DNA of 64,000 bases from assembly GCF_012910705.2 (NCBI RefSeq), contig NZ_WTVG02000040.1, forward strand, positions 496,001 through 560,000, in the 5' to 3' direction. Of the stretch, positions 21,444 through 41,029 are shown in pieces. The notes beneath the pieces were generated by a model that saw only the letters and a list, made by a program, of their open reading frames with translations, was not told the origin of the DNA and made no database searches. Position 1 is the stretch's first letter, and every line of letters begins with the position of its first letter. Position numbers and translations under genes: made by a program. This stretch comes from Aromatoleum anaerobium. GTDB lineage: Bacteria; Pseudomonadota; Gammaproteobacteria; Burkholderiales; Rhodocyclaceae.

Positions 21444-22205
21444 TTACTGCCGCTGCTTGTCGAGGAATCGCTGCACGCGCCGCTGCGTCTCGGCGTCGGC
21501 GAGCAGCGCCGCGCTGCCGGAGAGTTCCACTTCGAATCCATTTTCCTCGGCGGCGACCGCGACATCGATGCAGCGCTTGCATTCGGCAAGCGCCGTACCC
21601 GGCAGCGCCGCAATGCGTTCGACCACGGCCCGCGCGACCGATTCCAGCTCGGCAGCCGGCGCGACCCAGTGCGCACAGCCGAGTGCGACCGCTTCCGCGC
21701 CGCCGATCACTTCGGCGCCGAGGATCAGCCGCCTTGCGACCGCTTCGCCGCAGATGCGCGTCATGCGCTGTGTGCCGCCCGCCGCCGGCAGAAGCCCGAG
21801 CCGCGCTTCGGGCAGGCCGATCCTGGCGGAGTCGGCGACGACGCGCAGATCGCACGCGAGCGCGAGTTCGAAGCCCCCGCCCATCGCCGCCCCGCCAATC
21901 TCGACGACCGACACCTGCGGGAGACGTTCGAGGCGCGCATACACTTCCTGCATCCGGCGGGTCATCGCGATCATCTGCCTGCGCCCGGTCTCGCTGTCGA
22001 ACAACGAGCGGATCAGCTCCAGATCCGCACCGGCGCAAAACACCCGCTCGCCGCTGCGGATCCACAGCACGTTGACGCGCGGCGTGCGTTCGATCTCGGC
22101 GAGGATGCGGTCGAGCTGCTCGATCCATTCCTCGTTGATCGCATTGACCGGGGACCGGCACAGTGTCACGGTCGCGACCGAAGCTTCAATAGTTAGCGAA
22201 ATCAT
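21444..22205 (-). CDS. Enoyl-CoA hydratase/isomerase family protein (copy 1)
   Basis: Crotonase-family protein, 253 residues, start at 22205 preceded by GGGAGGG. The oxyanion-hole segments are present (RVFCAGADLEL near 55-65 and GGAAMGGGFELALACDLR near 104-121). The first catalytic Glu of hydratases is kept in LPEARLG (about residue 132). The position of the second Glu (as in rat ECH E164) is occupied by Arg in the VARRLILG stretch. A role in hydration or hydrolysis of a ring-derived enoyl-CoA is likely from context; the exact reaction is not fixed. It is the last catabolic gene of the unit that begins at 24149. Confidence 0.85.
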   Translation of the reverse strand: MISLTIEASVATVTLCRSPVNAINEEWIEQLDRILAEIERTPRVNVLWIRSGERVFCAGADLELIRSLFDSETGRRQMIAMTRRMQEVYARLERLPQVSVVEIGGAAMGGGFELALACDLRVVADSARIGLPEARLGLLPAAGGTQRMTRICGEAVARRLILGAEVIGGAEAVALGCAHWVAPAAELESVARAVVERIAALPGTALAECKRCIDVAVAAEENGFEVELSGSAALLADAETQRRVQRFLDKQRQ

Positions 22206-22529
22206 AAATCCCTCCCGATGGAACCCGATTCCCGGCCTGCGACGCCGCCACGGCGCCCACTGAAGGGGGAATCGGCACGGCGCGGTCAAGAATAAAAGGG
22301 AGGCATCGCCGGCGTTTGCGGACGTCGGAGGAGATGAGCAGCGTGGTATCACGCAAGCCGTTCGATGCGATGCCCCCGAAAACGGGTCGCCAGGAACCAC
22401 GCTCCGGCGAAGACCTGCAGCGGCGCCAGGGACGACACCTGCGGGCGCCGGCTCCCATGGCCGCCCGGCCATGTCTTCCCCTCCCCGCCCCGACGCCGTG
22501 CCGACACCGGGGCGCTGCCGTTTCCGGGC
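22206..22529. other. Intergenic gap between the two crotonase genes
   Basis: 324 bases with no coding signal. It holds a perfect 8-bp inverted repeat CATGGCCG-CC-CGGCCATG at 22456-22473, without a T run, and the ribosome-binding site of the downstream crotonase gene. The gap is long for an operon, so an internal promoter is possible, but I see no copy of the cluster operator here. Confidence 0.5.
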
Positions 22530-23348
22530 TCAGTTGCCTTCGAACTTCGGCACCTGCTTGTTCACGAACGCGTTATAGGCACGTTCGAAGTCCTTCGTCT
22601 GCATGCAGATCGCCTGGGCTTCGGCCTCAGTCTCGAGCGCCTGCTCGATCGTCTGGTTCCATTCCTGGTGCAGGCACTTCTTCGTCATCGAATGCGCGAA
22701 CGCCGGTCCGTTGGCGAGCGACAGCGCCATCTCCTGCGCCTTCGCCAGCACCTTCTCGCCCGGGACGATGTCGTTGAAGTAACCCCAGGCACGGCCTTCC
22801 TCGGCGCTCATCGAGCGGCCGGTGTAGAGCAGCTCGGACGCGCGGCCCTGGCCGATGATGCGCGGCAGGATGCTGCAAGCGCCCATGTCGCAGCCGGCCA
22901 AGCCCACCCGCACGAACAGGAAGGCGGTCTTCGCTTCCGGCGTCGCGTAGCGCATGTCGGAAGCCATCGAGATGATCGCGCCGGCGCCGGCGCAGATGCC
23001 GTCGACTGCCGAGATGATCGGCTGCGGGCAGTTGCGCATTTCCTTGACGAGGTTGCCCGTCATGCGGGTGAAGGCGAGCAGGCCGTCCATGTTCATGCGG
23101 GTGAGCGGGCCGATGATGTCGTGCACATCGCCGCCCGAGCAGAAGTTGCCACCCGCGCCCGTGATCACCACGACGCGCACGTCCTCCGCGTACTGCAGCT
23201 TGATGAAGGTGTCGCGCAGTTCGGCGTAGCTCTCGAACGTCAGCGGGTTCTTGCGCTCGGGACGGTTCAGCGTGATCGTCGCGACGCGATCGACCACGTC
23301 GAGTTTGAAATGCTCGGGACGCCACTCGGCAGCTTTCAGCTTGTACAT
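22530..23348 (-). CDS. Enoyl-CoA hydratase family protein (copy 2)
   Basis: Crotonase-family protein, 272 residues. The oxyanion-hole motifs are [11 protein letters not shown] (about 69-79) and [17 protein letters not shown] (about 117-133). The usual PE catalytic Glu is missing (the segment reads [14 protein letters not shown]), whereas a Glu is kept at the second position (RASELLYTG). This is the reverse of the neighbouring copy and is more like isomerase-type family members. It lies between the BadH-like dehydrogenase (54 bases upstream) and copy 1, so it probably acts on a ring or ring-opened acyl-CoA of the same pathway. The substrate is unknown. Confidence 0.87.
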
Positions 23349-23402: not shown

Positions 23403-24149
23403 TCAGCCCGCGAGCGTCAGACCGCCGCTCACGCTGATGACCTGGCCGGTGATGAAACTCGCCCGGTCGCTGGCGAAGAACAGCACCGCATCGGCGAGCT
23501 CGGACGGCTTGGCGAGGCGCCGCATCGGTGTCGCCTTGACGAAGGCTTCGCGATGCTTCTCCGGCACCGCCTGCAACAGCGGCGTGTCGGTCGGTCCCGG
23601 GCACACGCAATTGACGTTGATGTTGTAGCGCGCGACTTCGCGGGCGAGCGACTTGGTGAACGCGATCGCACCGCCCTTCGCCCCGGAATACACGGTTTCA
23701 CCGAGGCTGCCGACGCGCCCCGCGTCGCTCGCGACGGTGACGATCTTGCCCGCGCCGCGCTCGATCATCTGCGGCAGGAACGCGTGCGAAACCGCGACCG
23801 GCCCGAGCAGGTTGAGGTCGATGACCTTGCGCCAGAAGTCCGGCGTGTTGTCCATGAACGGCTGGATCTTGCCCCACCCTGCAACGTTTGCGACGATGTC
23901 GATCTGGGGGCGGCGGCGGTACGCCTCGTCCTTGAACGCGGCGATCGAATCGAGATCGGTGACGTCGAGGCGGATGAAGTCCACGCCCAGTTGCTGTTCG
24001 CACAGCGCGCCGGCGACGGCGGCACCCTTCTGCTCGTCGATGTCGCCGATCAGTACATAAGCCCCGGCGCGCGCGAGCGTTTCCGCGGTCGCCAGGCCGA
24101 TCCCCGATGCTCCGCCCGTGACTACTGCCGTTTTTCCGTCAAGCCGCAT
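23403..24149 (-). CDS. SDR dehydrogenase, BadH-like (hydroxyacyl-CoA dehydrogenase)
   Basis: Short-chain dehydrogenase, 248 residues. It has the Rossmann motif TGGASGIG (about 11-18), the NVAG segment, and a catalytic Ser-Tyr-x3-Lys set (IVTVASDAGRVG, then VYSGAKGG). Stretches such as NVNCVCPGPTDTPLLQ and FITGQVISVSGGLTL closely resemble BadH, the 2-hydroxycyclohexanecarboxyl-CoA dehydrogenase of Rhodopseudomonas palustris, from memory of that family. It is the first gene of a - strand unit with a strong promoter and operator upstream. A role in beta-oxidation of an alicyclic acyl-CoA is likely. Confidence 0.9.
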   Translation of the reverse strand: MRLDGKTAVVTGGASGIGLATAETLARAGAYVLIGDIDEQKGAAVAGALCEQQLGVDFIRLDVTDLDSIAAFKDEAYRRRPQIDIVANVAGWGKIQPFMDNTPDFWRKVIDLNLLGPVAVSHAFLPQMIERGAGKIVTVASDAGRVGSLGETVYSGAKGGAIAFTKSLAREVARYNINVNCVCPGPTDTPLLQAVPEKHREAFVKATPMRRLAKPSELADAVLFFASDRASFITGQVISVSGGLTLAG

Positions 24150-24457: not shown

Positions 24458-25696
24458 ATGCAGAAGACTTCATGGACCGCGGTAGGCATCGCGATCTTTT
24501 CCGGCATGGTGGCGGCAGCGGCCATCGGCAAGGTCCCGCCCGCGCTGCCGGCGGTGCGCGACCAGCTGGGACTGACGATGGTCGAGGCGGGCTGGGTGAT
24601 GTCGACGTTCGCGACGCTCGGCAGTTGTTGCGCGCTGTTTTTCGGCGGCGCGAGCGCGCGTGTCGGCGAGCTTCGGCTGACGCTGCTCGGGCTCGCGATG
24701 ATGGTGCTCGGCGCACTCCTCGGCGCGTTCGCGCAGAGTTACACGCTGTTGCTGGTGTCGCGCGTGCTCGAGGGCAGCGGCTTCATCGCCGTCGTCGTCA
24801 CCCTCCCCTCGCTGATCACGCGCAGCACGGCGCCGCGCGACTACCGCCTCGCGCTCGGCCTGTGGAGCATCTACCTGCCATTCGGCAGCAGCGTCGTGAT
24901 GCTGACGGCGCCGTTCCTGCTCCCGTCGCTCGGCTGGCGGGGCCTGTGGCTCGTTCTCGCCGGCGTGACGCTTGCCTGCGCGGCGCTGCTCTACCGCATG
25001 CGCCAGCGCTTCGTCGCGCCGGCGAACACCGCCAAGGGCCCCGCTTCGGGCGTGATCCTCGAAACCTTGCGCAGTCCGGGCGCGTGGTGCCTGACCGCCG
25101 CGTTTTTCACGTATACCCTGCAGTGGTTCACGCTGATGGTGTGGCTGCCGAGCTTCCTCGTCGAGCACCGCGGCCTTTCAGTGTCGCTCGCCGGCGCGCT
25201 GACCGCAGGGGTGGTCGCGGCAAACGTGCCCGGTAACATATTCGGCGGCTGGCTCGTCCACCGCGACATCCGGCGCGGCACGCTCATCTGCGGGACCTCG
25301 CTGTTCATGCTGGCGTGCGCGTTCGGCATTTTCGACGAGCGCCTGCCGGACGCGCTGCGCTACGGCCTGTGCCTGCTGTTTACCGCTGTCGGCGGCATTC
25401 TCCCGGCTGCCGCGTTCTCGGGCCTGACCGCCCATGCGCCGTCGCCGCGGCACATCGGGGCGGTCAATGGACTGCTCGTGCAGGGCTCGAACCTCGGCCA
25501 GTTCATCGGACCGCCGGCGATCGCCGCAGCCGTTACCGCGGGCGGGGGCTGGCACGCTGCGACCGGCATCATGGCAGGGGCTGCCGTGGCAGGCGTCGCC
25601 GCCGGCCTGTTGCTGCGGGTGATCGAACGCACCCAGCCGGACGCGCGCAGCGCCCCTGCGGACCATGCGCTCGCGGAAGGGGGCGGTCCGGGCTGA
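24458..25696 (+). CDS. MFS transporter
   Basis: Major facilitator superfamily transporter, 412 residues with about 12 membrane helices, transcribed divergently from the catabolic genes. The first half has typical helices with small residues (GWVMSTFATLG near 45-55), and the second half begins after a loop near residue 200. The closest resemblance by eye is to the CynX/NimT or aromatic-acid uptake groups. The shared operator and mirror-image promoter indicate regulation with the degradation genes, so it probably imports the aromatic or alicyclic acid or exports an intermediate. The substrate is not determinable from sequence. Confidence 0.9.
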   Translation: MQKTSWTAVGIAIFSGMVAAAAIGKVPPALPAVRDQLGLTMVEAGWVMSTFATLGSCCALFFGGASARVGELRLTLLGLAMMVLGALLGAFAQSYTLLLVSRVLEGSGFIAVVVTLPSLITRSTAPRDYRLALGLWSIYLPFGSSVVMLTAPFLLPSLGWRGLWLVLAGVTLACAALLYRMRQRFVAPANTAKGPASGVILETLRSPGAWCLTAAFFTYTLQWFTLMVWLPSFLVEHRGLSVSLAGALTAGVVAANVPGNIFGGWLVHRDIRRGTLICGTSLFMLACAFGIFDERLPDALRYGLCLLFTAVGGILPAAAFSGLTAHAPSPRHIGAVNGLLVQGSNLGQFIGPPAIAAAVTAGGGWHAATGIMAGAAVAGVAAGLLLRVIERTQPDARSAPADHALAEGGGPG

Positions 25697-28527: not shown

Positions 28528-28771
28528 GTCCTCCTGGTGCGCTGTGGGGGCCGGCCCGGCAATCTTGCGTAGCAAGTCCGACCGAATGCCCGGCGAGTGA
28601 TGCTCCTCTCTTCCACCTGCCGACGGTATCGGGTGCGTCGATAAGATTATCCCGCTTTGCCGGAATTTCGTGTTGTCCCTGCCGGCCCCGCACGCGGCGC
28701 CGGCCCTCTTTGCAGATCGGCGTCGGGGTGGCTGGGCTGCGGCTTTGCCCGACCGCCCGACGTGGTTCACG

Positions 28772-30343
28772 TCATGCGGCCGTTTTCATCATTTCCCGCA
28801 GACGGTATTTCTGGATCTTGCCGGTGGCCGTGCGCGGCAGCTCGTCGACGAAGCGGATCGTGCGCGGGCACTTGTAGATCGACAGGTTCGCCTTCAGCGT
28901 GTCGAGGACTTCCTCGGACAGCCGTGCGTGGTTCGCCGCCGGATCCTTGGCGACGGCAATCAGCGCGAGGCGCACCAGCCCGTCATCCTGCTGGATGCCG
29001 ACGACGGCGGCCTCGGAGATCCCCGGCGCCGTCATCGCACAGGATTCGATCTCCGACGGGCTCACCCATTGCCCGGAAATTTTCAGCATGTCGTCGGCGC
29101 GCCCGTTGTGGTACCAGTACCCGTCGCGGTCGAAACTGAACATGTCGCCGGGGTAGTACCAGCCGTCCCGCAGCGCCTTCGCGGTCAGTTCGGGCTGCTT
29201 CCAGTAGCCGGCGAACTGTGACGGCGTCCTGATCGCGATCAGCCCCGGCACATCGGGGGTGACGATCTCTTCGCCGGCTTCATCGACTAGGCGGACTTCG
29301 GCCCACGGCACCTTCTTGCCGCACGAACCCGGCCGCTGCTCGTGCCCCTCATTGACGAGAAACAGGAAGATCGTCTCCGACGCGCCGATGCCATCGATGA
29401 TCGGTTTGCCGCAGGCTTCGAGCCAGCGCTGGTAGAGCGTCTCGGGCAGCTTCTCGCCGGCCGACAGAAAATGGCGGATCTCGCGGCACGCGGGCGTTTC
29501 GGCGACGCCTTCGCGCAGCAGGTTGCGGTACATCACCGGTGTGCTGAACAGGATCGTCGGCTTGTGCCGCTCGATGACGCCGGCCATCAGCGTCGGGTCC
29601 GGCCAGCCCGGCACGACGATCACGGTCGCCCCGCAACGCAACCCGCCCATCAGCGAATGGCCGAGCGCCCAGCCGAAGAACATCTTCGATGTGGTGAAGA
29701 TGCGGTCTCCCGGCACGACGCCGAAATACTCGCGCTCCATCTGGTCCGCGATCAGCACGCAGTCGTGCGTGTGCATCACTGCCTTCGGCCGGCCGGTCGT
29801 GCCCGAGGAGTAGACCCAGAACGCGATGTCGTTCGGTGCCGCCGGCTCCGATTCGAGCGCATCGGAGCGGCCCTCGACGAAGCTCTCGAGCGACACGCAG
29901 CCCGCAGGAGGCGCGGCGCCGCGAACCACGACCAAAGGCCGGGACGCGAGCTCGCCGGCGATTTCCTCGTACAGGTGAACGAACTCGGCATCGATCATCA
30001 GCACCCGGCACTCGCTGTCTTCGATGACGTAGCGCACGTCGCGCGGCGCGAGGCGGACGTTGAGCGCAACCGAGACGGCGCCAATGCGCATCGTGCCGAG
30101 GTAGGCCGCAACCATTTCGGGCGAGTCGTCCATGAGGAAGAGCACCCGGTCTCCCCTGGCGAGCCCATGTTCCTTCAGCGCGTTCCCGGTGCGATTGACC
30201 ATCGCATTCAGTTCGCCATAGCTCACCGAGCGTTCGCCGCTGACGATCGCGGCCCGATCGCCGAGCCCCAGGAAAAGGGGGCGACCGATGATTTCGTCGG
30301 CCGCGTTCATCGTTCCATATCGCGCGGTATTGTCAAAGCTCAT
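28772..30343 (-). CDS. Benzoate-CoA ligase family protein
   Basis: Acyl-adenylate/thioester-forming enzyme, 523 residues, expected to activate an aromatic carboxylate with ATP and CoA. The ATP-binding loop YSSGTTGRPKAVMH lies near residue 175, and the hinge region DGWYYPGDM near 387. The C-terminal catalytic lysine is in RTATGKIQKYRLRE near 510. Overall it resembles benzoate/hydroxybenzoate-CoA ligases. The start is preceded by GTGGAG. A terminator-like hairpin separates it from the TRAP binding-protein gene upstream, so it may be read by partial read-through. The conserved lysine is the site acetylated in BadA-type ligases, relevant to the GNAT gene in this cluster. Confidence 0.9.
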   Translation of the reverse strand: MSFDNTARYGTMNAADEIIGRPLFLGLGDRAAIVSGERSVSYGELNAMVNRTGNALKEHGLARGDRVLFLMDDSPEMVAAYLGTMRIGAVSVALNVRLAPRDVRYVIEDSECRVLMIDAEFVHLYEEIAGELASRPLVVVRGAAPPAGCVSLESFVEGRSDALESEPAAPNDIAFWVYSSGTTGRPKAVMHTHDCVLIADQMEREYFGVVPGDRIFTTSKMFFGWALGHSLMGGLRCGATVIVVPGWPDPTLMAGVIERHKPTILFSTPVMYRNLLREGVAETPACREIRHFLSAGEKLPETLYQRWLEACGKPIIDGIGASETIFLFLVNEGHEQRPGSCGKKVPWAEVRLVDEAGEEIVTPDVPGLIAIRTPSQFAGYWKQPELTAKALRDGWYYPGDMFSFDRDGYWYHNGRADDMLKISGQWVSPSEIESCAMTAPGISEAAVVGIQQDDGLVRLALIAVAKDPAANHARLSEEVLDTLKANLSIYKCPRTIRFVDELPRTATGKIQKYRLREMMKTAA

Positions 30344-30408: not shown

Positions 30409-31440
30409 TCAGTTACTCAGCAGGGCCTGGGCTTCGGCGAGCAATTTCTGCCCGTCATGCCCCTTGGCGGTGACTTCCTTGACCCACTCGGCAGTCACCG
30501 ACTCGGAGGCCTTCTGCCACTTCTTCACTTCGTCCGCGGGCACCATATAGAAAGTGTTCTTGCGGTCCACCGCCGACTGACGCCCGGCCAGCGTCGCGTC
30601 ATCCCAGACCTTGCCGGCCCACGCCGACACCTCGGCGCCGCTGTTCGCGTCGATGACCTTCTTCAGCTCCGGCGGCAGGCTGTCGTATTTGGCCGGGTTC
30701 ATCGCCAGCACGAAGGCCGATGTCGACAGCAGCGGCATGCTCGGATCGGTCTCGGTGTGATACTTGACGACGTCCTGCACCTTCATCGCCGGCACCACTT
30801 CCCACGGGATCATCGCCCCGTCGATGACCCCCTTCGACAGGCTCTCGGTGACCAGCGGCACCGGCATCGGCACCGGCGTGGCGCCCAGCGCGGTGAGCAT
30901 CCGCGTTGCCAGCCGGGTCGGCGCGCGTACTTTCAGGCCACGCAGGTCGTCCATCGTCTTGACTTGCTTCTTCGACGTGTGCAGGGCCATGCCGGAGATC
31001 ACGTGGAAAACCAGCGGCCGCACGCCCTTGTACTCCTCCGTCGCGTTTTTCGTCGCGTAGGTCCACAGCGCCCGGCTCGACTTCTCGCCGGAGATGCCCA
31101 TGAACGGCAGCTCGAACGCTTCGGTCACGAGGAAGCGGCCCGCCTGGTAGCCGGGCAATGCCCAGACGATGTCGGCGACGCCGTCCTTGGCCTGGTCGAA
31201 CAGCTGCGGCGGCGTGCCGCCCATCTGCATCGCCGGATAGATCTGGCACTTCAGCCGGCCCGCGGATTCCGCATTGATTTTCGCGCACCACGGTTCGAGG
31301 AACTTCAGCTGCGTGTTCGACGACGGCGGCAGGAAGTGATGCACACGCAGCGTGACGACATCGTCTGCCTGGGCCTGGGCGGCACCAAACGTCATCAGCA
31401 CGGAAGCGCAAAGCGGGGTGAGCAGGTTGCGGGTTTTCAT
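30409..31440 (-). CDS. TRAP transporter substrate-binding protein (DctP family)
   Basis: Periplasmic solute receptor of a TRAP transporter, 343 residues, with a signal peptide of about 25 residues ending AQAQA. The DctP fold is recognisable (LRVHHFLPPSSN, then MDDLRGLKVRAPT near 160 with the carboxylate-binding Arg of that segment). It captures an organic acid and delivers it to the QM membrane pair encoded just upstream. Receptors next to aromatic CoA ligases often bind aromatic carboxylates; that specificity is inferred. The gene is followed by a strong terminator. Confidence 0.93.
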   Translation of the reverse strand: MKTRNLLTPLCASVLMTFGAAQAQADDVVTLRVHHFLPPSSNTQLKFLEPWCAKINAESAGRLKCQIYPAMQMGGTPPQLFDQAKDGVADIVWALPGYQAGRFLVTEAFELPFMGISGEKSSRALWTYATKNATEEYKGVRPLVFHVISGMALHTSKKQVKTMDDLRGLKVRAPTRLATRMLTALGATPVPMPVPLVTESLSKGVIDGAMIPWEVVPAMKVQDVVKYHTETDPSMPLLSTSAFVLAMNPAKYDSLPPELKKVIDANSGAEVSAWAGKVWDDATLAGRQSAVDRKNTFYMVPADEVKKWQKASESVTAEWVKEVTAKGHDGQKLLAEAQALLSN

Positions 31441-31480: not shown

Positions 31481-32812
31481 CTAGCCGCCGAAGGTCCGTA
31501 CCAGGTACAGCGTGATAACCGGGAAGAACATCAGCAACACGATGCGCATCAGGTCGGAGGCGAGGAACGGCATCACCCCCTTGAAGGTGTCGCTGAGCGG
31601 GACGTCCTTCGCGAGACGGTTGATGATGTAGATGTTCATGCCGACCGGCGGATGCACCAGACCGATCTCGACGACCATCAGCACGAGGATGCCGAACCAG
31701 ATCGACTTGTCTGCCTGGCTCAGGTCCCAAAACTCCAGGCCCATCACCACCGGATAGAAGATCGGGATCGTCAGCAGGATCATCGCCAGCGCGTCCATGA
31801 CGCAGCCGAGGAAGACATAGATCAGCAGGATCGCAGTCAGCACCAGCAGCGGCGACAGGCCGCTGTCCTTCACCCAGTTGGCGAGCTCGGCCGGCATCTG
31901 CGTGAGCGCGAGGCCCGTGTTGAGCATGTCCGCCCCGAGCAGCACGAGAAAGATCATCGCCGTCGCTTCGGCTGCCCCGAGGATGCTGTCCTTGACGCCT
32001 TCGAAGCGCATCCCGCCCGAGACGACCGCGAGGATGCCGCACGCGGCGGCGCCGATCGACGCCGCTTCAGTCGGATTGGCCCAGCCGCCATAGATACCGA
32101 TGATCACGACCAGGAAGATCAGTGCGACCGGGAACACGCTCGCGATCGAACGCAGCTTCTCGGCAAGCGGCACATGCGGGCCGGCGGGGCCGGCTTCCGG
32201 CTTGAGCGTGACGATGATGCGGATCACCAGCATGTAGCCGAGCATCGCGATGATGCCGGGCAGCACCGCCGCCATGAACAGCTTGCCGATCGATTCCTGC
32301 GTCAGCACGGCGTAGATCACGAGCGGCACCGACGGCGGGATCAGGATGCCGAGCGTGCCGCCCGCGGCCAGCGCGCCGGTCGACAGCGCGCCGGAATACT
32401 TGTAGCGCTTGAGCTCCGGCAGCGCGACCTGGCCCATCGTCGCGGCCGTCGCCAGCGACGAGCCGCAGATCGCGCCGAAGCCCGCACAGGCGCCCGTCGA
32501 GGCCATCGCGACGCCGCCGCGCCAGTGCCCGACCAGCGAACTCACGCAGCGGAACAGCGCCCGCGACAGGCCGCCGTGCGTCGCGAACTGCCCCATCAGC
32601 AAGAACATCGGGATGACGGCGAGGTCGTAGTTCGAGAGCCGCGCATACGCGAGGTTCTTGAGCATGTTGAGAAAAGGCGACCAGTCGCCGCCGGTCATCG
32701 TCAGGAAGCCGCCGGCGCCGACCGTGAACATCGTGATGCCGATATGCACGCGCAGCACGAGCATCACCAGCAGGATGCCGAACATCGTGACGCCGATTTC
32801 GATGCCGCTCAT
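31481..32812 (-). CDS. TRAP transporter large permease (DctM family)
   Basis: Large membrane subunit of the TRAP transporter, 443 residues with about 12-13 helices. Typical DctM segments are GFGAICGSSLATAATMGQVA near 110-130 and GTLGILIPPSVPLVIYAV near 155. It catalyses sodium-coupled uptake together with the DctQ protein and the periplasmic receptor. The start overlaps the DctQ stop by 4 bases, indicating coupled translation and a fixed complex. It ends 40 bases before the receptor gene. Confidence 0.95.
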   Translation of the reverse strand: MSGIEIGVTMFGILLVMLVLRVHIGITMFTVGAGGFLTMTGGDWSPFLNMLKNLAYARLSNYDLAVIPMFLLMGQFATHGGLSRALFRCVSSLVGHWRGGVAMASTGACAGFGAICGSSLATAATMGQVALPELKRYKYSGALSTGALAAGGTLGILIPPSVPLVIYAVLTQESIGKLFMAAVLPGIIAMLGYMLVIRIIVTLKPEAGPAGPHVPLAEKLRSIASVFPVALIFLVVIIGIYGGWANPTEAASIGAAACGILAVVSGGMRFEGVKDSILGAAEATAMIFLVLLGADMLNTGLALTQMPAELANWVKDSGLSPLLVLTAILLIYVFLGCVMDALAMILLTIPIFYPVVMGLEFWDLSQADKSIWFGILVLMVVEIGLVHPPVGMNIYIINRLAKDVPLSDTFKGVMPFLASDLMRIVLLMFFPVITLYLVRTFGG

Positions 32813-33453
32813 TTCGCCTCTCCCAGTGCATGACGGAAACGCCGTCCGGCGATGTACAGGCCGGTCAGCGCGAACAGGATGAAGCTCGGCACGATCAGCG
32901 CGATCGCGATCCATCCCGGCCATCCGAGCATCAGCGACGCCTCGCCCGACTCGAACGACGCGACGGCGCCGATCGCGGTGCGCCACGAAACCAGCAGCGC
33001 GACGACGCACATCAAGAGCGCGGCGAGGCCGTCGAGGAAGGCGCGCAGGCGCGCCGGCATCCAGGTCGTGAAGAAATCGACCTTCACGTGCCCGTCGGTC
33101 ATTTGGCAGTACGCGAAGAACGTCGCCGCGGCCACCGCCGCGCCCATCTGCAGCACCTCGAAATCGCCGGGCACCGGCAGCGAGAACAGCTTGCGCCCGA
33201 TGATCGACACCAGCGACATCGCGATCAGCACGATGAACAAGACTCCGCCGGCCAAGGCGAACATCCTGCTGACCCCGTGCAGCCGCATGCCCCATGGCCC
33301 GTGCGGCAGCGCTTCAGGATGGGCGACGTGTTCGATGGAACCGGGCTCGAGCAGGATTCCCTCTTCGCCCGCGGGCACCGTGGGTCGAACAGGAAGCCCT
33401 TCGGCGCCACGCGGCGTAGCCGTCGCATCGTAGCTCGCAATGCTTGCATGCAT
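32809..33453 (-). CDS. TRAP transporter small permease (DctQ family)
   Basis: Small membrane subunit, 214 residues, start preceded by AGGAGGAG. An unusually long hydrophilic N terminus of about 60 residues precedes four helices (about 65-88, 105-125, 135-160, 175-198). The DGHVKVDFF stretch is typical of DctQ. It partners the large permease encoded by the overlapping downstream gene. Upstream lies a 161-base gap with a strong palindrome, so the transporter genes may be regulated separately from the acyl-CoA dehydrogenase gene at the RNA level. Confidence 0.92.
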   Translation of the reverse strand: MHASIASYDATATPRGAEGLPVRPTVPAGEEGILLEPGSIEHVAHPEALPHGPWGMRLHGVSRMFALAGGVLFIVLIAMSLVSIIGRKLFSLPVPGDFEVLQMGAAVAAATFFAYCQMTDGHVKVDFFTTWMPARLRAFLDGLAALLMCVVALLVSWRTAIGAVASFESGEASLMLGWPGWIAIALIVPSFILFALTGLYIAGRRFRHALGEAK

Positions 33454-33614: not shown

Positions 33615-34793
33615 TCAGTACTTCTGTTCCCGTTCGTACGCTGAAAGCGTCTGCCGGGCGATGATGAGTTGCTGGACTTCGGTTGCGCCTTCGTAGATGC
33701 GCAGCGACCGGATCTCGCGATACAGGCGCTCGACGGGGTGATCGCTGACGACTCCGCAGCCGCCCCAGATCTGCACGGCGGCATCGATGACCTGCTGCGC
33801 CGTCTCGGTGGATGTCATCTTCGCCATCGCGGCGGCGCGCGTGATGTTCTGTCCCTGATCGCGCAGCCACGCAGCGCGGTAGGTGAGCAGCGCCGAAGTG
33901 TCGACACCGGTGGCCATCTGCGCGAGCTTCGCCTGCGTGATCTGGAAATCAGCAAGCTTCTGGCCGAACATGTCGCGCGTCGTCGCGCGCTTGAGCGCTT
34001 CGTCGAGCGCGCGCCGCGCAAAACCGAGCGCCGCCGCGGCCACCGACGTGCGGAAAATGTCGAGGGTCTGCATCGCGACCTTGAAACCCTGGCCCGGCAG
34101 GCCGAGGAGGCAGGACTTCGGCACGCGGCACTCGCGAAAGCGCAGACGGGCGAGCGGATGCGGCGCGATGACGTCGATGCGTTCGGCGATTTCGAGCCCC
34201 GCCCTGTCGGCCTCGACGATGAACGCGGAAAGCCCGCGGGCGCCGGGCGCTTCGCCGGTGCGGGCGAAGACCACGTAAAAATCGGCGATGCCGCCGTTCG
34301 AGATCCACGTCTTCTCGCCGTCGATCACGTACTCGTCGCCGTCCTGGCGCGCGCTGCAGGCCATCGCGGCGACGTCCGAACCGGAGCCGGGCTCCGACAG
34401 CGCGAAGGCGGCGATCGCCCGGCCGGCTGCGACGCGCGGCAGGTAGTCGCGCTTCTGCGCGTCCGATCCATGCAGCGTGATCGCGCCGGAACCCAGCCCC
34501 TGCATGCCGAAGGCGAAGTCGGCGAGCCCGGAGTGACGCGCCAGCGTCTCGCGCAGCAGGCATACCGCGCGGGTATCGATGACGTCGTGACAACCGCCGT
34601 AGGCGGTGCCGCCGACGACGTAGCGCAGCCAGCCGGCGGCGCCCAGCTTGGCCACCAGCTCGCGGCACGCGGCGTCGAGATCGCTGCCGTGATGTGCGTT
34701 CACGTTCGCCGACGCCCAGGCCTCGAGTTCGATCTGCAGTTGCCGGTGACGCTCGTCGAAGAACGGCCACTCGAGATAGGTCTGATCACTCAT
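33615..34793 (-). CDS. Acyl-CoA dehydrogenase
   Basis: FAD-dependent acyl-CoA dehydrogenase, 392 residues. Landmarks are [17 protein letters not shown] near 128-144, the KTWISNGG flavin segment near 160, and the C-terminal [20 protein letters not shown] stretch, whose Glu (YEGATE) is the position of the catalytic base in many family members. It probably oxidises an alicyclic or ring-derived acyl-CoA to an enoyl-CoA, feeding the crotonase proteins; this follows the BadJ precedent but is inferred. Electron transfer would need ETF, not encoded here. It lies 148 bases after the SDR gene in the same direction. Confidence 0.92.
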
Positions 34794-34941: not shown

Positions 34942-35736
34942 TCACATGACTTCTCCGCCGGACACCGAAATCGCCTGGCCGGTGATCGCTTCCGCACCCG
35001 GCAGGCACAGCCACAGCACGGCATTCGCGACTTCGTCGGGACGAACCAGGCGGCCTTGCGGGTTGTGCTTTGCCAGCTCGCCTTGCGCTTCGGCTTCGCT
35101 GCGGCCAGTCTTGGCGCGGATATTCGTGATCGCCTCGCGCACGATGTCGGTGTCGGTGTAGCCGGGACAAACCGCATTCACCGTGATGTTCTTCTGGGCC
35201 AGTTCGAGCGCCAGCGCGCGGGTCATGCCGATGACGCCATGCTTGGCGGCGCAATAGGCCGAGACGTAAGGGTAGCCTTTCTGCCCGGCAGTGCTGGCGA
35301 CATTGACGATGCGGCCCCAGCCGGCGGCGAGCATGCCGGACAGCACTGCCTTCGTCCCGAGGTAAGTGCCGGTGAGGTTGACGTCGAGCATCTGCTGCCA
35401 CAGCGCGAGATCGGTCTTGATGAACGGCGCGCTCGACGCCTGGCCGGCGTTGTTGACCAGGATCGAGACCGGCCCGAATCTGTGTGCGGCCGCCTCGAAA
35501 GCGGCCGCGACGGAGGCCGGGTCGGCGACGTCGACGGCTTCGCAATGCATGTCGCAATGCACGCCGATGAGTGCGCGCAGCGCGTCCGCCCGCTCTTCGA
35601 GCGGTTCGCGCGTGCGCCCCATCAGCGTGACGCGGGCGCCTTGTTCGGCCAGGCGCTGTGCGATCGCGGCACCGATGCCACGGCCGCCTCCGGTGACCAC
35701 CGCATGCTTGCCGGAAAGTTCGCGCACCGTACTCAT
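34942..35736 (-). CDS. SDR family oxidoreductase (second copy)
   Basis: Short-chain dehydrogenase, 264 residues, start preceded by GGAGGGGG. It has the Rossmann motif TGGGRGIG (about 15-22), NNAG near 93, and the catalytic Ser in IVNVASTAG with the YCAAKHG Tyr-x3-Lys. The C terminus ITGQAISVSGGEVM is typical of hydroxyacyl-CoA dehydrogenases. It is the first gene of a unit that continues with acyl-CoA dehydrogenase, the TRAP transporter and the ligase, and it has an operator upstream. It probably acts on a different hydroxyacyl-CoA stereoisomer or ring position from the BadH-like enzyme. Confidence 0.9.
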   Translation of the reverse strand: MSTVRELSGKHAVVTGGGRGIGAAIAQRLAEQGARVTLMGRTREPLEERADALRALIGVHCDMHCEAVDVADPASVAAAFEAAAHRFGPVSILVNNAGQASSAPFIKTDLALWQQMLDVNLTGTYLGTKAVLSGMLAAGWGRIVNVASTAGQKGYPYVSAYCAAKHGVIGMTRALALELAQKNITVNAVCPGYTDTDIVREAITNIRAKTGRSEAEAQGELAKHNPQGRLVRPDEVANAVLWLCLPGAEAITGQAISVSGGEVM

Positions 35737-36139
35737 TCCACCCCCTCCTTCATTGACTGGAACCCATCGCCACCTGCCTGGCACCGATGCTCCGCTTCCT
35801 GCCGCCGCAGGGCGCGTATCACCCCTCGGGGTGTCACTGCCACCCAAATCAGTGAATGAATGGTCACTCATTCACCTCCATGCGTCAAGTCATATTCGAC
35901 GTTGAAAGGACAATTCTTGTGGTGAGCCGTCCGTGTGGACGGCGCCTGTTTCTTCTGGAATGAATTGTGGCGGAGACAGTGTTACTACCGGCCTGGCGAT
36001 CGTCGGTCACGACCACCCGGCCCATCGGTGCCGCAAGTATGCAGCGCTTCGGCGCGCTCTGGTTGACTGCAGGCAGTCCCGCGCCAAGATGTCGCCTCCG
36101 GCGCGGCAGACCTTGCCGGTCACCGCGCCGGCTACCCGC
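35737..36139. other. Intergenic control region between SDR operon and reductase operon
   Basis: 403 bases. It holds the operator copy at 35854-35873 and a 7-bp hairpin GCCGTCC-GTGT-GGACGGC at 35926-35943, possibly the end of the reductase transcript. A TTGACG hexamer on the - strand upstream of the operator could be a -35. No coding signal is seen. Confidence 0.5.
35854..35873. promoter_or_regulatory. Cluster operator, copy 3 (upstream of SDR operon)
   Basis: GAATGAATGGTCACTCATTC matches the inverted repeat at every defined position and extends to a 24-bp near-palindrome with flanking GT/AC. It lies about 118 bases upstream of the SDR start codon, with a TTGACG hexamer on its upstream side. 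Confidence 0.68.
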
Positions 36140-36592
36140 TCAGGGCAGCTGATATTCCAGATTCACCCGCTTGGACGGCGTGAACTTCTGCCGCGAGAAG
36201 AATTTCTCCAGCGCGAAATCGTCCCAGTTCACCAGCGTGTAGACCTTCTTCACGCCCGCCGCCTTCATGTTCATCATGAACTGGTCGAGCATTTCACTGG
36301 CGATGCCGTGGTTCTGGAACTCCGGATGGACGCCGAGGGTGTCGATCGTCGCGGACGTTTCCGGGATGCCGAACTCGCCGAAATAGACGTCGCCCATGAC
36401 GAAGCCCACGATCCTGCCATCGATCTCGCAGACGATCGACGAGTTGATGTTGTGAGCAGAATTGAGGATTGTCTCGAACTTGCGTTCGTAGTAATCGCGG
36501 CGGGAGCGCTTTGCACCGATTTCGTCGATTGCGACGACCGCGCCGAGATCATCCTTCTTCAGTACGCGCATTACACGGTTCTTTTCAGGCAT
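36140..36592 (-). CDS. GNAT family N-acetyltransferase
   Basis: GNAT acyltransferase, 150 residues, with the acetyl-CoA pyrophosphate-binding signature in HPEFQNHGIASEM near 88-100 and the core strands (IVGFVMGDVYF, then KKVYTLVNWDD). It is the last gene after the reductase subunits, 62 bases downstream and separated by a strong hairpin. In R. palustris, GNAT enzymes acetylate the catalytic lysine of benzoate-CoA ligase and switch it off. A similar role on the cluster ligase is a reasonable inference, but small-molecule acetylation is also possible. Confidence 0.87.
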   Translation of the reverse strand: MPEKNRVMRVLKKDDLGAVVAIDEIGAKRSRRDYYERKFETILNSAHNINSSIVCEIDGRIVGFVMGDVYFGEFGIPETSATIDTLGVHPEFQNHGIASEMLDQFMMNMKAAGVKKVYTLVNWDDFALEKFFSRQKFTPSKRVNLEYQLP

Positions 36593-36613
36593 TTCCCCTT
36601 CTCCTCGATAAAT

Positions 36614-36641
36614 GCAGCGCCGGCAGGGATGCCGGCGCTGC
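36614..36641. repeat. Perfect 12-bp hairpin between bzdQ and GNAT genes
   Basis: GCAGCGCCGGCA-GGGA-TGCCGGCGCTGC. On the - strand the stem is followed by ATTTATCG, not a proper T run, so it could be a partial terminator or a 3'-end stabiliser of the reductase message. Confidence 0.6.
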
Positions 36642-36654
36642 TTCAGCCCCGACT

Positions 36655-37575
36655 TCAGGCCGCTTTCACCTGCTTCTGCATCAGCGTGTAGCCGAACAGC
36701 GCCGCGCCCAGCGCGCCGGCGATCTGGCTGTCGATCTTGGTGTCGACCGCCTTGATGCCGAGGATGCGCTCGATGCGCTTGACGACACCCGGGTTCTTCG
36801 CGATGCCGCCGGTGATGAAGAAGCCTTCCTCGACGCCGATGCGCTCCAAGAGGCTCACCACGCGCTCGGCCATCGCCTGGCAGTATGCCGCGATCACCTT
36901 GTTCTTGGTGTAGCCGGCCTTCAGGAGACCCAGCGCTTCGGACTTGGCGAACACGACGCAGATCGACGACACCGCTTCGGGTTCGACATCGACGTCGAAC
37001 GAGCGCGGGCCCAGTTCGGCGATCGGGATCTGCATCAGGTCGGAGATGACTTCCATGCCGCGCCCGGTGCCGGCCGCGCACTTGTCGTTCATCAGGAAGT
37101 TGGTGACCTTGCCTTTCTCGTCGCAGTGGATCGCCTTGCAATCCTGGCCGCCCATGTCGAGGATGGTGCGCACCTTGTTGCCGCCCATGTAGTTCGCGCC
37201 GCGCGCGTGGCAGGCGATCTCGGTGATCGCCTTGTGGGCGAACGGCACGTTCACCCGGCCGTAGCCGGTGCCGACGACGTAGTGGATGTCCTCGAGCTTC
37301 ATGCCGATCTTGTCCATGATGCCCTGCAAGGCATTCCTGGCCGAGTCCGGCGAGTTGTTGCCGGTGCGCATGCTGTTGTAGCCGTACAGCTCGCCGTCAC
37401 AGACCAGCACCGCTTGCGAGGACACCGAGCCGACGTCGATGCCGCAGGTGATGATCTTGGCGTCTCTCCAGTCCTTCTTCGTCTCGTCGAACCAGACGTT
37501 TTCCTGCCAGCGCCAGAATTCCTTCTTCTCGGGGGCCGCTTCTGCCGCCGTGGCCGCAGCAACTTCTGCATTCAT
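36655..37575 (-). CDS. bzdQ: Class I benzoyl-CoA reductase, Bzd-type Q subunit
   Basis: ATP-hydrolysing electron-activating subunit of the BadF/BcrA family, 306 residues, matching Bzd-type Q (shorter than Thauera BcrA). The N-terminal ASKHA-type ATPase motif is CGIDVGSVSSQAV near 46-58. Two cysteines expected to hold the [4Fe-4S] cluster shared with the partner subunit are in NDKCAAGTGRGME (about 138) and SSICVVFAKSE. ITGGIAKNPGVV is near 258. With the P subunit it drives low-potential electrons to the N/O half, which reduces the aromatic ring of an acyl-CoA. The substrate need not be benzoyl-CoA itself. Confidence 0.9.
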   Translation of the reverse strand: MNAEVAAATAAEAAPEKKEFWRWQENVWFDETKKDWRDAKIITCGIDVGSVSSQAVLVCDGELYGYNSMRTGNNSPDSARNALQGIMDKIGMKLEDIHYVVGTGYGRVNVPFAHKAITEIACHARGANYMGGNKVRTILDMGGQDCKAIHCDEKGKVTNFLMNDKCAAGTGRGMEVISDLMQIPIAELGPRSFDVDVEPEAVSSICVVFAKSEALGLLKAGYTKNKVIAAYCQAMAERVVSLLERIGVEEGFFITGGIAKNPGVVKRIERILGIKAVDTKIDSQIAGALGAALFGYTLMQKQVKAA

Positions 37576-37625
37576 TTGATCGCTCCTTTATCCGTGTCTT
37601 GTCGCGTGTCTTTGCGCGTATCGGT

Positions 37626-38435
37626 TCAGTGCTGGCGTTCGGCCGCGATCAGCGCGCAGCCCAGCGCGCTGACGAATTCCGGCAGCTCGGGCAGCAGCAC
37701 CTGATCGACGTCCATCGCGTTCTTGAGCGACGCGACGAAACCGGGGTTGTGCACCATGCCGCCGATCAGCACCACGTTGCCTTCGATGCCGACGCGGCGC
37801 ACCATCGCGCACACCCGGCTGGCGACCGCGTCGAGCACGGCCTTGGCGATGTCTTCCTTCGGCGTCGCGGAGTGGATCAGCGACACCACTTCGGACTCGG
37901 CGAACACCGTGCATTGGGCGTTCATCGGGATCGACTTGTCCGAGCGCAGGCTCGCTTCGCCGAATTCCTTGAGCGTGAGCTGCAGCGCGCGGCTCATCGC
38001 TTCGGCGAAGGAACCCGCCCCGGCGGCGCACTTCTCGTTGCCGGCGAAGTCGATCGCCTTGCCGTCCGCGTCGGTCTTGATGCCGCGCCCTTCCTCGGCG
38101 CCGACGTCGACCACGGTGCGCGCCTGCGGGTACATGTACACCGCGCCGCGCGCCCCTGCCGTCATCTCGGTGACGCCTTCGGTGGCGAACTCGACCTGCT
38201 TGCGACCGGCCCCGGTCGCGAACACCGACTTCACCTGGTCACGCGACACCCCGGCCGCGGCCAGCGCTTCGGTGAAAGCCTTCTCGGCGGCCTGGTCGGC
38301 GTCGATGTCGCCCGGCATCATCAGGTGCGCTTTCTTCACCGCGTAGTTCAGTTGCGGCGCGCCATCCACCTTGATCTCCTCCAGCAGCACAACCTTCACG
38401 CTGCGGGAGCCCATGTCGATTCCAGCGGTAATCAT
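37626..38435 (-). CDS. bzdP: Class I benzoyl-CoA reductase, Bzd-type P subunit
   Basis: Second BadF/BcrD-type ATPase subunit, 269 residues, start at 38435 preceded by GAGGA. The N-terminal phosphate motif is TAGIDMGSRSVKVVLLE. Cluster-ligand cysteines lie in NEKCAAGAGSF (about 128) and NAQCTVFAESE (about 168); LIGGMVHNPGFV is near 226. It pairs with the Q subunit. The gene begins 130 bases after bzdO, a gap with a small hairpin, and ends 50 bases before bzdQ. Confidence 0.9.
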   Translation of the reverse strand: MITAGIDMGSRSVKVVLLEEIKVDGAPQLNYAVKKAHLMMPGDIDADQAAEKAFTEALAAAGVSRDQVKSVFATGAGRKQVEFATEGVTEMTAGARGAVYMYPQARTVVDVGAEEGRGIKTDADGKAIDFAGNEKCAAGAGSFAEAMSRALQLTLKEFGEASLRSDKSIPMNAQCTVFAESEVVSLIHSATPKEDIAKAVLDAVASRVCAMVRRVGIEGNVVLIGGMVHNPGFVASLKNAMDVDQVLLPELPEFVSALGCALIAAERQH

Positions 38436-38545
38436 TCTCGTATCCTCAATCGAAAATTCATTCTGATACCACCTGCACGCCGGAACGCACCGATTCGTCA
38501 CCCGCCGCACGTGTGGTGCGACAGGCGACGTCGGCAACGATACGG

Positions 38546-38560
38546 CGCGCTGGCAGCGCG
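38546..38560. repeat. Small hairpin at the bzdO-bzdP junction
   Basis: CGCGCT-GGC-AGCGCG, a 6-bp perfect stem next to the bzdO stop. It could tune the stoichiometry of the N/O and P/Q halves of the reductase. Confidence 0.4.
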
Positions 38561-38565
38561 GAAAA

Positions 38566-39870
38566 TCAGGCGGCCAGGCGGCGCAGGCCGAGCTGCTCCA
38601 TGAACGCATCGACCCGCGCCTGGGTGCGAACTTCGTCGAACTCGCGCTCGTCGCCCATGTTTCCTTCGTACGTCATGATCGGGATGCCGGCCTTCGCCAT
38701 CGCCTGGCGGTTCTCCATGATCCCGACGGAGAGACCTTCGCAACCGCGGTTCAGGTGCATCATGCAGCCATCGACTTTCCAGTCGCGCGCGATGTTGAGC
38801 ATCATCTCGGACTTCACCGACGGGTCGAAGAACTGCTGCCACAGCGGCTTCGACAGGTTCCAGTCGGCATAGAGACGCAGCGCCGTGTCGCGGTCGTTCA
38901 TCTCGATGCCGTTCTCCCACGGCAGCGTGCGTGCGCCCCAGCTGCCGTCGGGCTTGGTCTCCCACGTGCCTTCGAGGCCGAAGGTGTAGAGCGAGCCGAC
39001 CGACACCGCGCCGTAGCTCTCCAGATAGCGGAATATCTTCAGGAAAGGCCACGGCGGCTGCGTGTCCGACATCAAGCGGCAGCGCTCGTTGGGCACTGCG
39101 GCGATGCCGCGCGCGACGCGGTCCTTCACTTCCTCGTACAGCTCGTCATAGAAGTCGGCGCACCACTGCGAGGACTTGTGCAGGATCGCGAGCACGTACA
39201 GCGAGTACATCGTCTTCTCGTCGAGCGGCGCCGGCACGGCTTTCTGCAGTTCGCAGATCTGCGCCCAGCGTGCGGTCGAGCGCATCTCGTTCTTGATCGC
39301 GCGGATCAAGAGCTCGTCGTCGCACTTGCGACCCGTGGCTTTCTCGACGAACTCGATCGAGTCGTGCAGCTGGCTCGTCACATAGTCGAGGCGGTCCGGC
39401 GTCAGGTCCTTGTACGCGCCGACCGACACGTCGACGTAGAAATCGGGAATGCCTTTCGTGCGCGCGACGTGCTGGTACCACTTCGCGTGCGAGCAGCAGA
39501 TCTGCGTCTGGTAGATGAAGTCCGACTTCGGCCACTTGCCGCCGTAGAAGTACTCATCCAGATGCATGCTGCCCCAGTAGATGCGCATGTACGAGCACAT
39601 GTCGCGCGCGAAGCCGTAGGATTCGGCGGCGTCGAGGCAGCGCTGGGTGAATTTGCGGTCGAGCGACACGCCGGCCGAATACGGCTCGCCGGTCAGCGGA
39701 TAGACGTCGTCGCCGAGCGAGGTCGGGATCGCGTCGAACGACCAGCCGGCCGCCGACCAGCGGATGCCGCCGTTGTCCTTCGCACGGGCGTAGTTCTGGT
39801 AGTACTGCTCGCGCAGCTGCTTGGCCTTGCCCCAGAGCTTGAGCGGTTCGGTCGGGTACAGGTTCGTCAT
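38566..39870 (-). CDS. bzdO: Class I benzoyl-CoA reductase, Bzd-type O subunit
   Basis: Subunit of the active-site half of the reductase, 434 residues, of the 2-hydroxyglutaryl-CoA dehydratase D-component/BcrB family and of Bzd-type O length. Cysteines for an iron-sulfur cluster and substrate site are visible in [17 protein letters not shown] (about 119-135), together with [12 protein letters not shown] (about 93) and the [12 protein letters not shown] segment near 385. Together with the N subunit it binds the aromatic acyl-CoA and receives electrons from the P/Q half. It starts 19 bases after the bzdN stop. Confidence 0.9.
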
Positions 39871-39889
39871 GGTTGGTCTCCTTGAGGGC

Positions 39890-41029
39890 TCAGAACAGCT
39901 CTTCTTCGCTCAGCGTCTCGAGCATCGCTTCGATGCGGATGCGGAACGGGCCGATGGGGTTCGTGATGTCGAATTCCAGGAACAGCGTCGGAATGCCGTT
40001 GGCTTCGAGGTGACGCTTCAGGTCCGGGTAGTCGCCCTCGTGCGGATCGCAGAACTTCTGCTGCAGGAAGATCGCGGCCTGGACGTTGTATTCCTTCGCC
40101 AGATTGAGCACGTGGTCGAAACGCGTGTGGGCCGGGTAGTCCTTGGTCGGGCACGCCGGCCGGTCGCAGTAGCGCTCGGCGATCGCGCGGACGACGTCGT
40201 CGCCGGGTTTCGAGGCGTTCCAGAAGTAGCGCGTGCCCGAGCACTGGTCGTCGATGACGATCGTCGCGCCGACGGATTCGACCATCGCCATGAACGAGAC
40301 GTCGTCGTTTTCCGAGCCGATGGTCATGAAGCGCGCGCCCTGCGGACGATCGAGATTGCGCGTCGGCAGCGCCGCCAGCACTTTCTTCAGCTGCTCGTTG
40401 TGCTCGCGCTTGTCGATGAACTGGGCGGTGATCGACGCATACAGCGCTTCGACGCCGGTCACCTGCGGGTTCGTTTCCTTGCGGTAGTCGAAGAGCTGGC
40501 GCAGCAGGCGGCGGTTCTCGTCACACACGGCAAGCGACTCGCGCAGCATGTCGTCGGTGATTTCCTTGCCGGTCAGCGTCTGCAGGAACACGCGGAAGCG
40601 CTGCACTTCGGCGATATGCGCCTTGCGCGAATGCGGCGACTGCACGTCGTTCGGCATCGCGACGTAGTAGTCCCACTTCACCGTCGGGACATTCTGGCGC
40701 CACGAGCTGTAGGTCTGGCGGTACTGGATGCACGACTGCGTCAGCGTCACGCCTTCCGCATAGTCGTAGCGGCCGAGCAGGCCCTGGGCGAGCGAGTCGC
40801 GACAGAACGGGCAGAACATGCCGAAGATGTGCGGCTCGGTGACGTTCTGCGGCTCATGCGCGCCGAGCACGCGCACCGGCAGCATCCCGGCCGCGATCAG
40901 CAATTCCTCGGGCGAATAGGTACACATCGTCGCCACGACCTGCCCGCCCGTGCGCGCCTTCCAGGCCCGCGCGTAGTCGTGACGCTTCTCGTACCACTCC
41001 TTGAACTGGTCAAACAATCCGTCGTTCAT
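39890..41029 (-). CDS. bzdN: Class I benzoyl-CoA reductase, Bzd-type N subunit
   Basis: Other subunit of the active-site half, 379 residues, BcrC/2-hydroxyglutaryl-CoA dehydratase family and of Bzd-type N length. Candidate cluster cysteines are in [18 protein letters not shown] (about 31-48) and the MFCPFCRDS segment near 75. It is the first gene of the N-O-P-Q order used in Azoarcus bzd clusters. Upstream are an FNR-type box and a cluster operator. Unlike the standard bzd cluster there is no ferredoxin, dienoyl-CoA hydratase or ring-opening hydrolase beside it, so this may be a second reductase for another aromatic acyl-CoA. Confidence 0.9.

Follow-up and report, generated by a model that had tools for sequence, protein, structure and literature searches.

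A stretch of 64,000 nucleotides from the soil bacterium Aromatoleum anaerobium (contig NZ_WTVG02000040.1, positions 496,001 to 560,000), called the window below, carries a complete set of genes for a BZD-type class I ring reductase at positions 36655-41029 of the minus strand. The gene hbdN (39890..41029) encodes a BzdN-type subunit that scores 862.6 bits on TIGR03190 (cut-off 453.8) and can be aligned over its full length with crystallised BzdN, the carrier of the [8Fe-9S] cluster (PMC11971306). It is followed by hbdO for the substrate-binding subunit (38566..39870; TIGR03191, 982 bits against a cut-off of 448.6) and by hbdP and hbdQ for the two activase subunits. HbdQ (36655..37575) reaches 671.5 bits on the BzdQ model TIGR03192 (cut-off 380.2). 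HbdP (37626..38435) is an acyl-CoA dehydratase activase (TIGR00241, 200.8 bits against 125.4) whose open reading frame (ORF) extends from 37626 to 38609 with an ATG at about 38435. In other words, N, O and Q exceed the curated NCBIfam equivalog cut-offs for Bzd subunits and P is an activase, which places the enzyme in the BZD-type class I. An earlier note on this DNA, made from its letters, had reported the N-O-P-Q genes as complete, and so they are; the start that it gave, 36140, takes in a separate gene for a GNAT acetyltransferase (approximately 36140..36592, minus strand, assigned with Pfam).

Downstream of hbdQ, the minus strand continues with this GNAT gene, a short-chain dehydrogenase/reductase (SDR) gene (34942..35871, with the true start probably about 50 codons within the ORF), an acyl-CoA dehydrogenase gene (33615..34793), a DctM-type permease of a TRAP transporter (31481..33295, an ORF of 604 amino acids; TIGR00786, 296.4 bits against 268.45), the solute-binding protein of a TRAP transporter (30409..31440; NF037995, 85.1 bits against 50), and hbdA for a 3-hydroxybenzoate-CoA ligase (28772..30343; NF053567, 1061 bits against 1000). 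Beyond hbdA, the plus strand carries genes for a serine recombinase and an MFS transporter, after which the minus strand resumes with a second SDR gene (23403..24149), a crotonase gene of the PRK08258 family (22530..23348; NF006107, 485.9 bits against 330), a second crotonase gene (21444..22472), and a gene for a TetR-type regulator (20526..21260), which ends the cluster and has the same place in all 14 contiguous loci described below. The whole is very probably the hbd cluster, with which an Aromatoleum degrades 3-hydroxybenzoate anaerobically; cluster and pathway are of an already known kind, and the catalytic pair HbdNO would work with an unspecialised PQ activase. The assignment is made because a TRAP transporter and a ligase above the HbdA cut-off adjoin the reductase and because the gene order is kept among congeners. 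The earlier note had been silent on HbdA, the TRAP transporter and the serine recombinase.

Conservation of the cluster in the genus

Both reductases were found above the cut-offs in 15 of 17 genomes of the genus (G000-G016, the window genome being G000), one of them in G014 and none in G010. The order N, O, SDR, acyl-CoA dehydrogenase, TRAP genes, hbdA, SDR, two crotonases and TetR is kept in 14/14 contiguous hbd loci, namely the window and 13 others; a further locus, L047, is cut by a contig end and was left out. These 14 loci vary in the GNAT gene, which is missing in three, and in PQ, which is broken or missing in two. The description of the cluster as non-standard is a relative one: the layout differs from that of bzd, but it is the usual one for hbd loci in Aromatoleum. 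In G003, hbdA is split over two frames. In locus L039 of G011, the TRAP permease gene is shorter than in the window by about 0.5 kb (at about 9622-9630), so that this strain may have defective hbd uptake.

The congener G005, which has a syntenic cluster, very probably represents A. aromaticum EbN1. PMC9765128 describes the anaerobic 3-hydroxybenzoate route of EbN1 as a reductive dearomatisation to 3-hydroxydienoyl-CoA followed by modified beta-oxidation to 3-hydroxypimeloyl-CoA, with TRAP-type uptake under anoxic conditions and specific regulation of the pathway, save for some exceptions at the transcript level. The syntenic loci probably correspond to the published EbN1 genes. The window resembles that system in its dearomatising reductase and TRAP genes, and differs from the G005 locus in carrying an element with a serine recombinase in the interval from hbdA to the MFS gene and in its PQ genes, which are 97.5-97.6% identical to bzdPQ, compared with 99.9-100% in G005.

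A separate bzd cluster in the same genome

The bzd benzoate operon includes genes for a ferredoxin, an NADPH:ferredoxin oxidoreductase, a dienoyl-CoA hydratase, a dehydrogenase X and a ring hydrolase. None of these is present in the window, and all are found on another contig (C37). Searches of the whole window by tblastn with the ferredoxin-like protein, the BzdV-like protein and the ring hydrolase of the same genome gave no match at 1e-3, and the bzd hydratase had no match other than the two crotonases (28-30% identity). The ring-hydrolase profile gave just a weak match to one crotonase in the window (42.8 bits against 464.45), and the profile for the BzdX-type dehydrogenase gave no window match. 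The reported lack of ferredoxin, hydratase and ring-hydrolase genes is thus confirmed for the window.

The search for a second benzoyl-CoA reductase cluster, proposed as a check in the earlier note, was positive, and the window is not the sole such locus. The window genome (4.56 Mb in 40 contigs) gives two matches each for BzdN and BzdO (E 0.001), and the second copy lies on C37 inside a bzd cluster. This cluster comprises N, O, P and Q, a ferredoxin-like protein of 94 amino acids, a GNAT gene, a CehA/McbA-type metallohydrolase, a BzdV-like oxidoreductase and a hydratase, then a BzdX-type dehydrogenase (629.4 bits against 338.65), a ring hydrolase (671.1 against 464.45), an SDR, a benzoate-CoA ligase (817.2 against 375.25), and a BzdR-type regulator. 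The ferredoxin has no NCBIfam match and takes its name from where it lies and from its sequence; the hydratase has the dienoyl-CoA hydratase model TIGR03189 as its best match, below the cut-off (174.7 against 292.5). A second ring-opening hydrolase above the TIGR03200 cut-off (564.6 bits against 464.45) is encoded away from the bzd and hbd contigs, at G000:C13:384286-385365 (L156), where it adjoins ORFs that look by eye like tyrosine recombinases.

None of 14 control genomes had a protein above the cut-offs for BzdN, BzdO or BzdQ, with some matches below. Present models label the two reductases alike, since the window and C37 copies pass the same equivalog cut-offs. Other ring reductases are more distant. 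Thauera-type BcrCBAD is likewise an ATP-dependent class I reductase, but the window subunits fall far short of its cut-offs (BcrC 129.6 bits against 421.15, BcrB 54.4 against 486.55, with BcrA and BcrD also below). The 3-methylbenzoyl-CoA reductase MbdONQP (PDB 9g87; PMC4424350) belongs to the same superfamily and acts on a meta-substituted ester, but MbdO and MbdN match the window O and N only weakly (58.9 and 98.1 bits). A four-gene Mbd reductase is present in G002 (L155, C1:4978000-4990000), with 25-40% identity to Bzd and an N subunit that matches MbdN of the PDB at 817.7 bits; the same genome has BzdNO identical to the crystallised protein. Weak O-profile matches of this kind were found in G001, G007 and G012, and none in the window genome.

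Divergence of subunits N and O

Trees of N and O were built from DNA of 32 rows, 15 hbd and 17 bzd. The two groups separate with support values of 100/99 for N and 100/100 for O, and the window copy falls in the hbd clade in both, apart from bzd. Within each of 15 genomes, the hbd and bzd copies are 84.7-88.1% identical in N and 78.8-81.7% in O at the DNA level. Synonymous divergence (Ks) is similar for both subunits (N 0.40-0.63, O 0.48-0.64), and the fixed amino-acid differences between hbd and bzd number 46 in O and 4 in N. For the window, N and O proteins are about 88% and 77% identical to the bzd copy of the same genome.

Where do these differences lie in the enzyme? G002 and G004 encode BzdNO proteins that are 100% identical to those in the crystals, so that the published residue numbering applies. 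BzdNOPQ of Aromatoleum sp. CIB (PDB 8S02, 8S1T, 8S2R; PMC11971306) has the same subunits as the window enzyme, and its genes M, V, W, X and Y have no counterpart beside the window reductase. Cys95, Cys128 and Cys380 of O, the ligands of the cluster, and Glu65 and His131, the acid/base residues, are invariant (15/15 hbd, 17/17 bzd), and Trp46, Tyr97, Gln274, Tyr298, Leu302 and Leu383 are likewise common to CIB BzdO and HbdO. Among the active-site residues of PMC11971306 that were compared, all are invariant between hbd and bzd except Ser44 and Ala45. In crystalline BzdO, ring C3 is 3.6-4.0 A away from the side chain of Ser44, and the backbone of Ala45 binds Glu65 (PMC11971306). Both belong to a block, residues 43-48, that reads AAGWSF in 15/15 hbd and GSAWAL in 17/17 bzd sequences. 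The change of the ring-side residues Gly43-Ser44-Ala45 in every hbd protein makes an ester other than benzoyl-CoA likelier as the main substrate, and we infer that specificity would reside mainly in subunit O, through this block beside ring C3.

A wider alignment of O comprised 115 rows (96 distinct, with some repeats of the same strains). AAGWSF was found in 28 rows, and GSAWAL or a one-residue variant in the other 87. All but one of the 28 form a single clade. The exception, L144 from a Sterolibacterium metagenome-assembled genome, has an AAGWSF subunit placed among 18 bzd-type rows (GSAWAL in 17, GSAWAF in one), yet its locus holds hbd lower genes. Of the 46 fixed positions, 18 have the hbd state in L144, and these include every one of the five that change within the block; 17 have the bzd state and 11 a third state. 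This pattern links the AAGWSF block to a 3-hydroxybenzoate context, whether by shared descent or by convergence.

Substrate and pathway

3-Hydroxybenzoyl-CoA is the likely substrate, because a second reductase resides in the bzd cluster, the window copy groups in a distinct hbd clade, and HbdA is the ligase encoded alongside it. The same three points bear out the suggestion of a paralogous reductase for a substituted benzoyl-CoA. In the proposed pathway, 3-hydroxybenzoate would be taken up through the TRAP transporter and converted to 3-hydroxybenzoyl-CoA by HbdA. HbdNO would then reduce the ring with electrons energised by the ATP-hydrolysing PQ pair, and reduced ferredoxin would be supplied from another part of the genome, the bzd cluster being the simplest source. 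The SDRs, the acyl-CoA dehydrogenase and the crotonases would carry out a modified beta-oxidation, the order of these lower steps being a prediction.

Could the window instead hold a redundant second reductase for benzoyl-CoA? N, O and Q above the Bzd cut-offs, PQ genes nearly identical to those of bzd, and invariant cluster ligands and acid/base residues would all be expected of such a copy. However, the genome has its bzd cluster elsewhere, hbdO forms a separate clade with its 46 fixed differences, and the two ligases differ: that of the window is HbdA, and that of C37 scores only 371 on the HbdA profile, for which the cut-off is 1000. A redundant benzoate copy is therefore highly improbable. 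A broader specificity, with another meta-substituted benzoyl-CoA as the specific substrate and 3-hydroxybenzoate as only one of several, is easier to entertain but still unlikely. Class I reductases can be promiscuous, according to PMC5742626, and an alanine in place of Ser44 would probably leave space for more than a hydroxyl group; against this stand the HbdA equivalog and the synteny of the TRAP genes, and the fact that the Mbd-type reductase for 3-methylbenzoate is of a different family, about 25% identical, found in G002 and without such a match in the window genome.

The earlier note had also proposed a cyclohexanecarboxylate-type (bad/ali) lower route. The SDRs, the acyl-CoA dehydrogenase and the two crotonases on which it drew are present, and BadH is the top NCBIfam match of the SDR at 23403..24149, but at 254.7 bits this "BadH-like" protein is far below the BadH cut-off (431.2). 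Likewise, the acyl-CoA dehydrogenase matches cyclohexane-1-carbonyl-CoA dehydrogenase at 247.7 bits, against a cut-off of 650, and the AliB equivalog is reached in the window at only 181.7 bits against 575.35. Genes that do pass, for an AliB-type protein (746.8 bits) and BadH (482.1 bits), are located on contig C35 (241562-244037). The route was rejected on these grounds of gene content, and among the explanations considered it is the one to which we give almost no credence. The 3-hydroxybenzoate assignment is the best explanation of the cluster.

Homogenisation of the activase genes with the bzd copies

The history of P and Q differs from that of N and O. Trees of P and Q were built from 29 rows, leaving out the hbd loci of G001, G007 and G009, which have no usable P and Q. 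The hbd copies do not form one clade (approximately unbiased test, p 5.5e-7 for P and 2.9e-82 for Q, with the Q bootstrap not settled). In the window genome, the hbd and bzd copies of P are 97.5% identical in DNA and 100% in protein, and those of Q are 97.6% identical in DNA. A block of about 97% identity common with the bzd cluster spans approximately 36624..38441 of the window, as seen from sliding identity, trees and Ks; one 150-column segment within it drops to 82%. DNA identity between the hbd and bzd copies of P/Q is 99.9/100% in G005, 99.5/99.8% in G008 and 99.1/99.6% in G011. In these three genomes and the window genome, the hbd and bzd copies of N and O differ by 12-20%. The other eight genomes have 85.7-88.2% for P and 93.2-96.0% for Q.

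These observations indicate repeated gene conversion of PQ between hbd and bzd; its direction is inferred. Identity shifts abruptly at the PQ genes, and in G005 the tract comprises 1,783 bp with one mismatch and has both edges no more than about 20 bp away from those of the P and Q genes. The P tree pairs the two G005 copies with each other and likewise the two G008 copies, and it leaves the four copies from G000 and G011 in a single unresolved group. Homogenisation therefore occurred at least three times: in the G005 line, in the G008 line, and in the line of G000 and G011. Might the likeness be due to strong purifying selection or to a recent duplication of the whole cluster? P and Q proteins are conserved, with non-synonymous divergence (Ka) within genomes of up to 0.07. 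However, synonymous sites are near-identical too: within G000, G005, G008 and G011, Ks is 0.00-0.10 for P and Q and 0.40-0.54 for N and O. Furthermore, the Ks of P/Q between G000 and either G005 or G008 (0.15-0.28) exceeds the within-genome values, and the identity change at PQ is abrupt. Neither selection nor duplication is at all probable as a substitute for conversion. For comparison, Ks of P/Q between G000 and other genomes is 0.03-0.11 for G011, its closest relative, 0.16-0.21 for the bzd copy of G007, and 0.24-0.59 for the rest.

Loci without activase genes

Not every hbd locus has activase genes of its own. A survey covered 24 chosen genomes, G000-G017 and the genomes of six loci out of a set of 80. 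An hbd-type O was found in 21 of them, with PQ adjoining in 12 and lacking in six; three were unassigned (G001, G061 and G062), and G010, G014 and G066 had no hbd-type O in the survey data. G001, where the contig ends shortly after O, and G062, with only about 520 bp after O, were kept out of the PQ-less count. A. buckelii (G007, L038) has a deletion of about 1.2 kb from the P start into Q, with a frame-broken Q remnant. The one-contig genome G009 has just a short Q remnant. No P or Q was found within at least 6 kb after hbdO in G017 (L056), G063 (L151), G064 (L152) and G065 (L144). All six PQ-less genomes encode a full-length BzdQ above the cut-off, one apiece. Two candidates were set aside. 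Locus L077 does not count as PQ-less, since a P gene begins at its contig end and is present there for 70 residues. The metagenome locus L101, which looked like one reductase for both pathways, was probably mis-joined inside N: its assembly contains another O, of the hbd type, on a contig whose end falls in N (L151).

How, then, is HbdNO activated in such strains? Gene loss together with gene conversion suggests that BzdPQ can probably serve HbdNO in trans. The PQ activase would be unspecialised, its genes homogenised with the bzd copies in some lineages and absent in others. This leads to a general model, which we regard as having about an even chance of being correct, that one activase (BzdPQ) serves two substrate-specific ring reductases. 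The hbdPQ genes would be a redundant copy, repeatedly overwritten by gene conversion or lost, as hbdNO persists, and the choice of substrate would be set in O, with AAGWSF and GSAWAL acting as a code for 3-hydroxybenzoyl-CoA and benzoyl-CoA, respectively. Bzd-type reductases have been proposed to be only transient assemblies of activase and catalytic pair (PMC11971306).

Several observations weigh against this reading of the cluster. Three of the PQ-less genomes (G063, G064 and G065) are metagenome assemblies and G017 is of unknown kind, and near-identical genes can be lost in assembly; G017 also has split frames in both N genes. More distant activase-like genes are present in several congeners, including G007 and G009, and their products could take over the activation of HbdNO. 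Of the 12 genomes that have both PQ pairs, eight are without recent conversion of P (Ks 0.36-0.54) and have an intermediate Q (Ks 0.11-0.27), which counts against constant homogenisation. Lastly, by a hand count, the fixed differences of O fall at 11 of 77 positions near the active site and at 35 of 357 elsewhere, where near means within four residues of positions 44, 46, 65, 95, 97, 128, 131, 274, 298, 302 and 380-383. A general enrichment near the published residues was dropped on this account, and only the 43-48 block stands out.

In the open-licence literature, no account was found of the homogenised or missing activase or of the AAGWSF block, and subscription papers may well describe the hbd cluster in other strains. 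Among the activase papers listed there, none dealt with sharing between reductases, judging by title or opening of the abstract, and PMC9795900 contains no hbd terms.

Neighbouring genes and a mobile element

A large serine recombinase gene (26016-28457, plus strand) is part of an element of about 2.98 kb (25731-28709) between hbdA and the MFS gene. In four other loci (L037, L038, L039 and L041), the same interval is only about 25-33 bp long. Partial copies of the element are found at G000:C13:377285 (95% identical), about 5 kb from the second ring-opening hydrolase mentioned above, and in G005 and G011 (94% and 96%). The MFS transporter gene (24458..25696, plus strand) has the same place in 5/14 contiguous loci, which are the window and the same four.

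A GNAT gene is present in both clusters, directly after Q in the window and after the ferredoxin-like gene in the bzd cluster (L007), and the two paralogues are 73% identical. The N-acetyltransferase activity of BadL is needed for benzoate catabolism in R. palustris, as stated in PMC6191541, and this precedent makes a role for the cluster GNAT worth testing.

Significance

The block at residues 43-48 of O is a sequence marker that separates benzoate from 3-hydroxybenzoate reductases, and it offers a short list of residues for tests of specificity. Natural loci that have a catalytic pair without an activase of their own make the sharing of an activase testable in existing strains.

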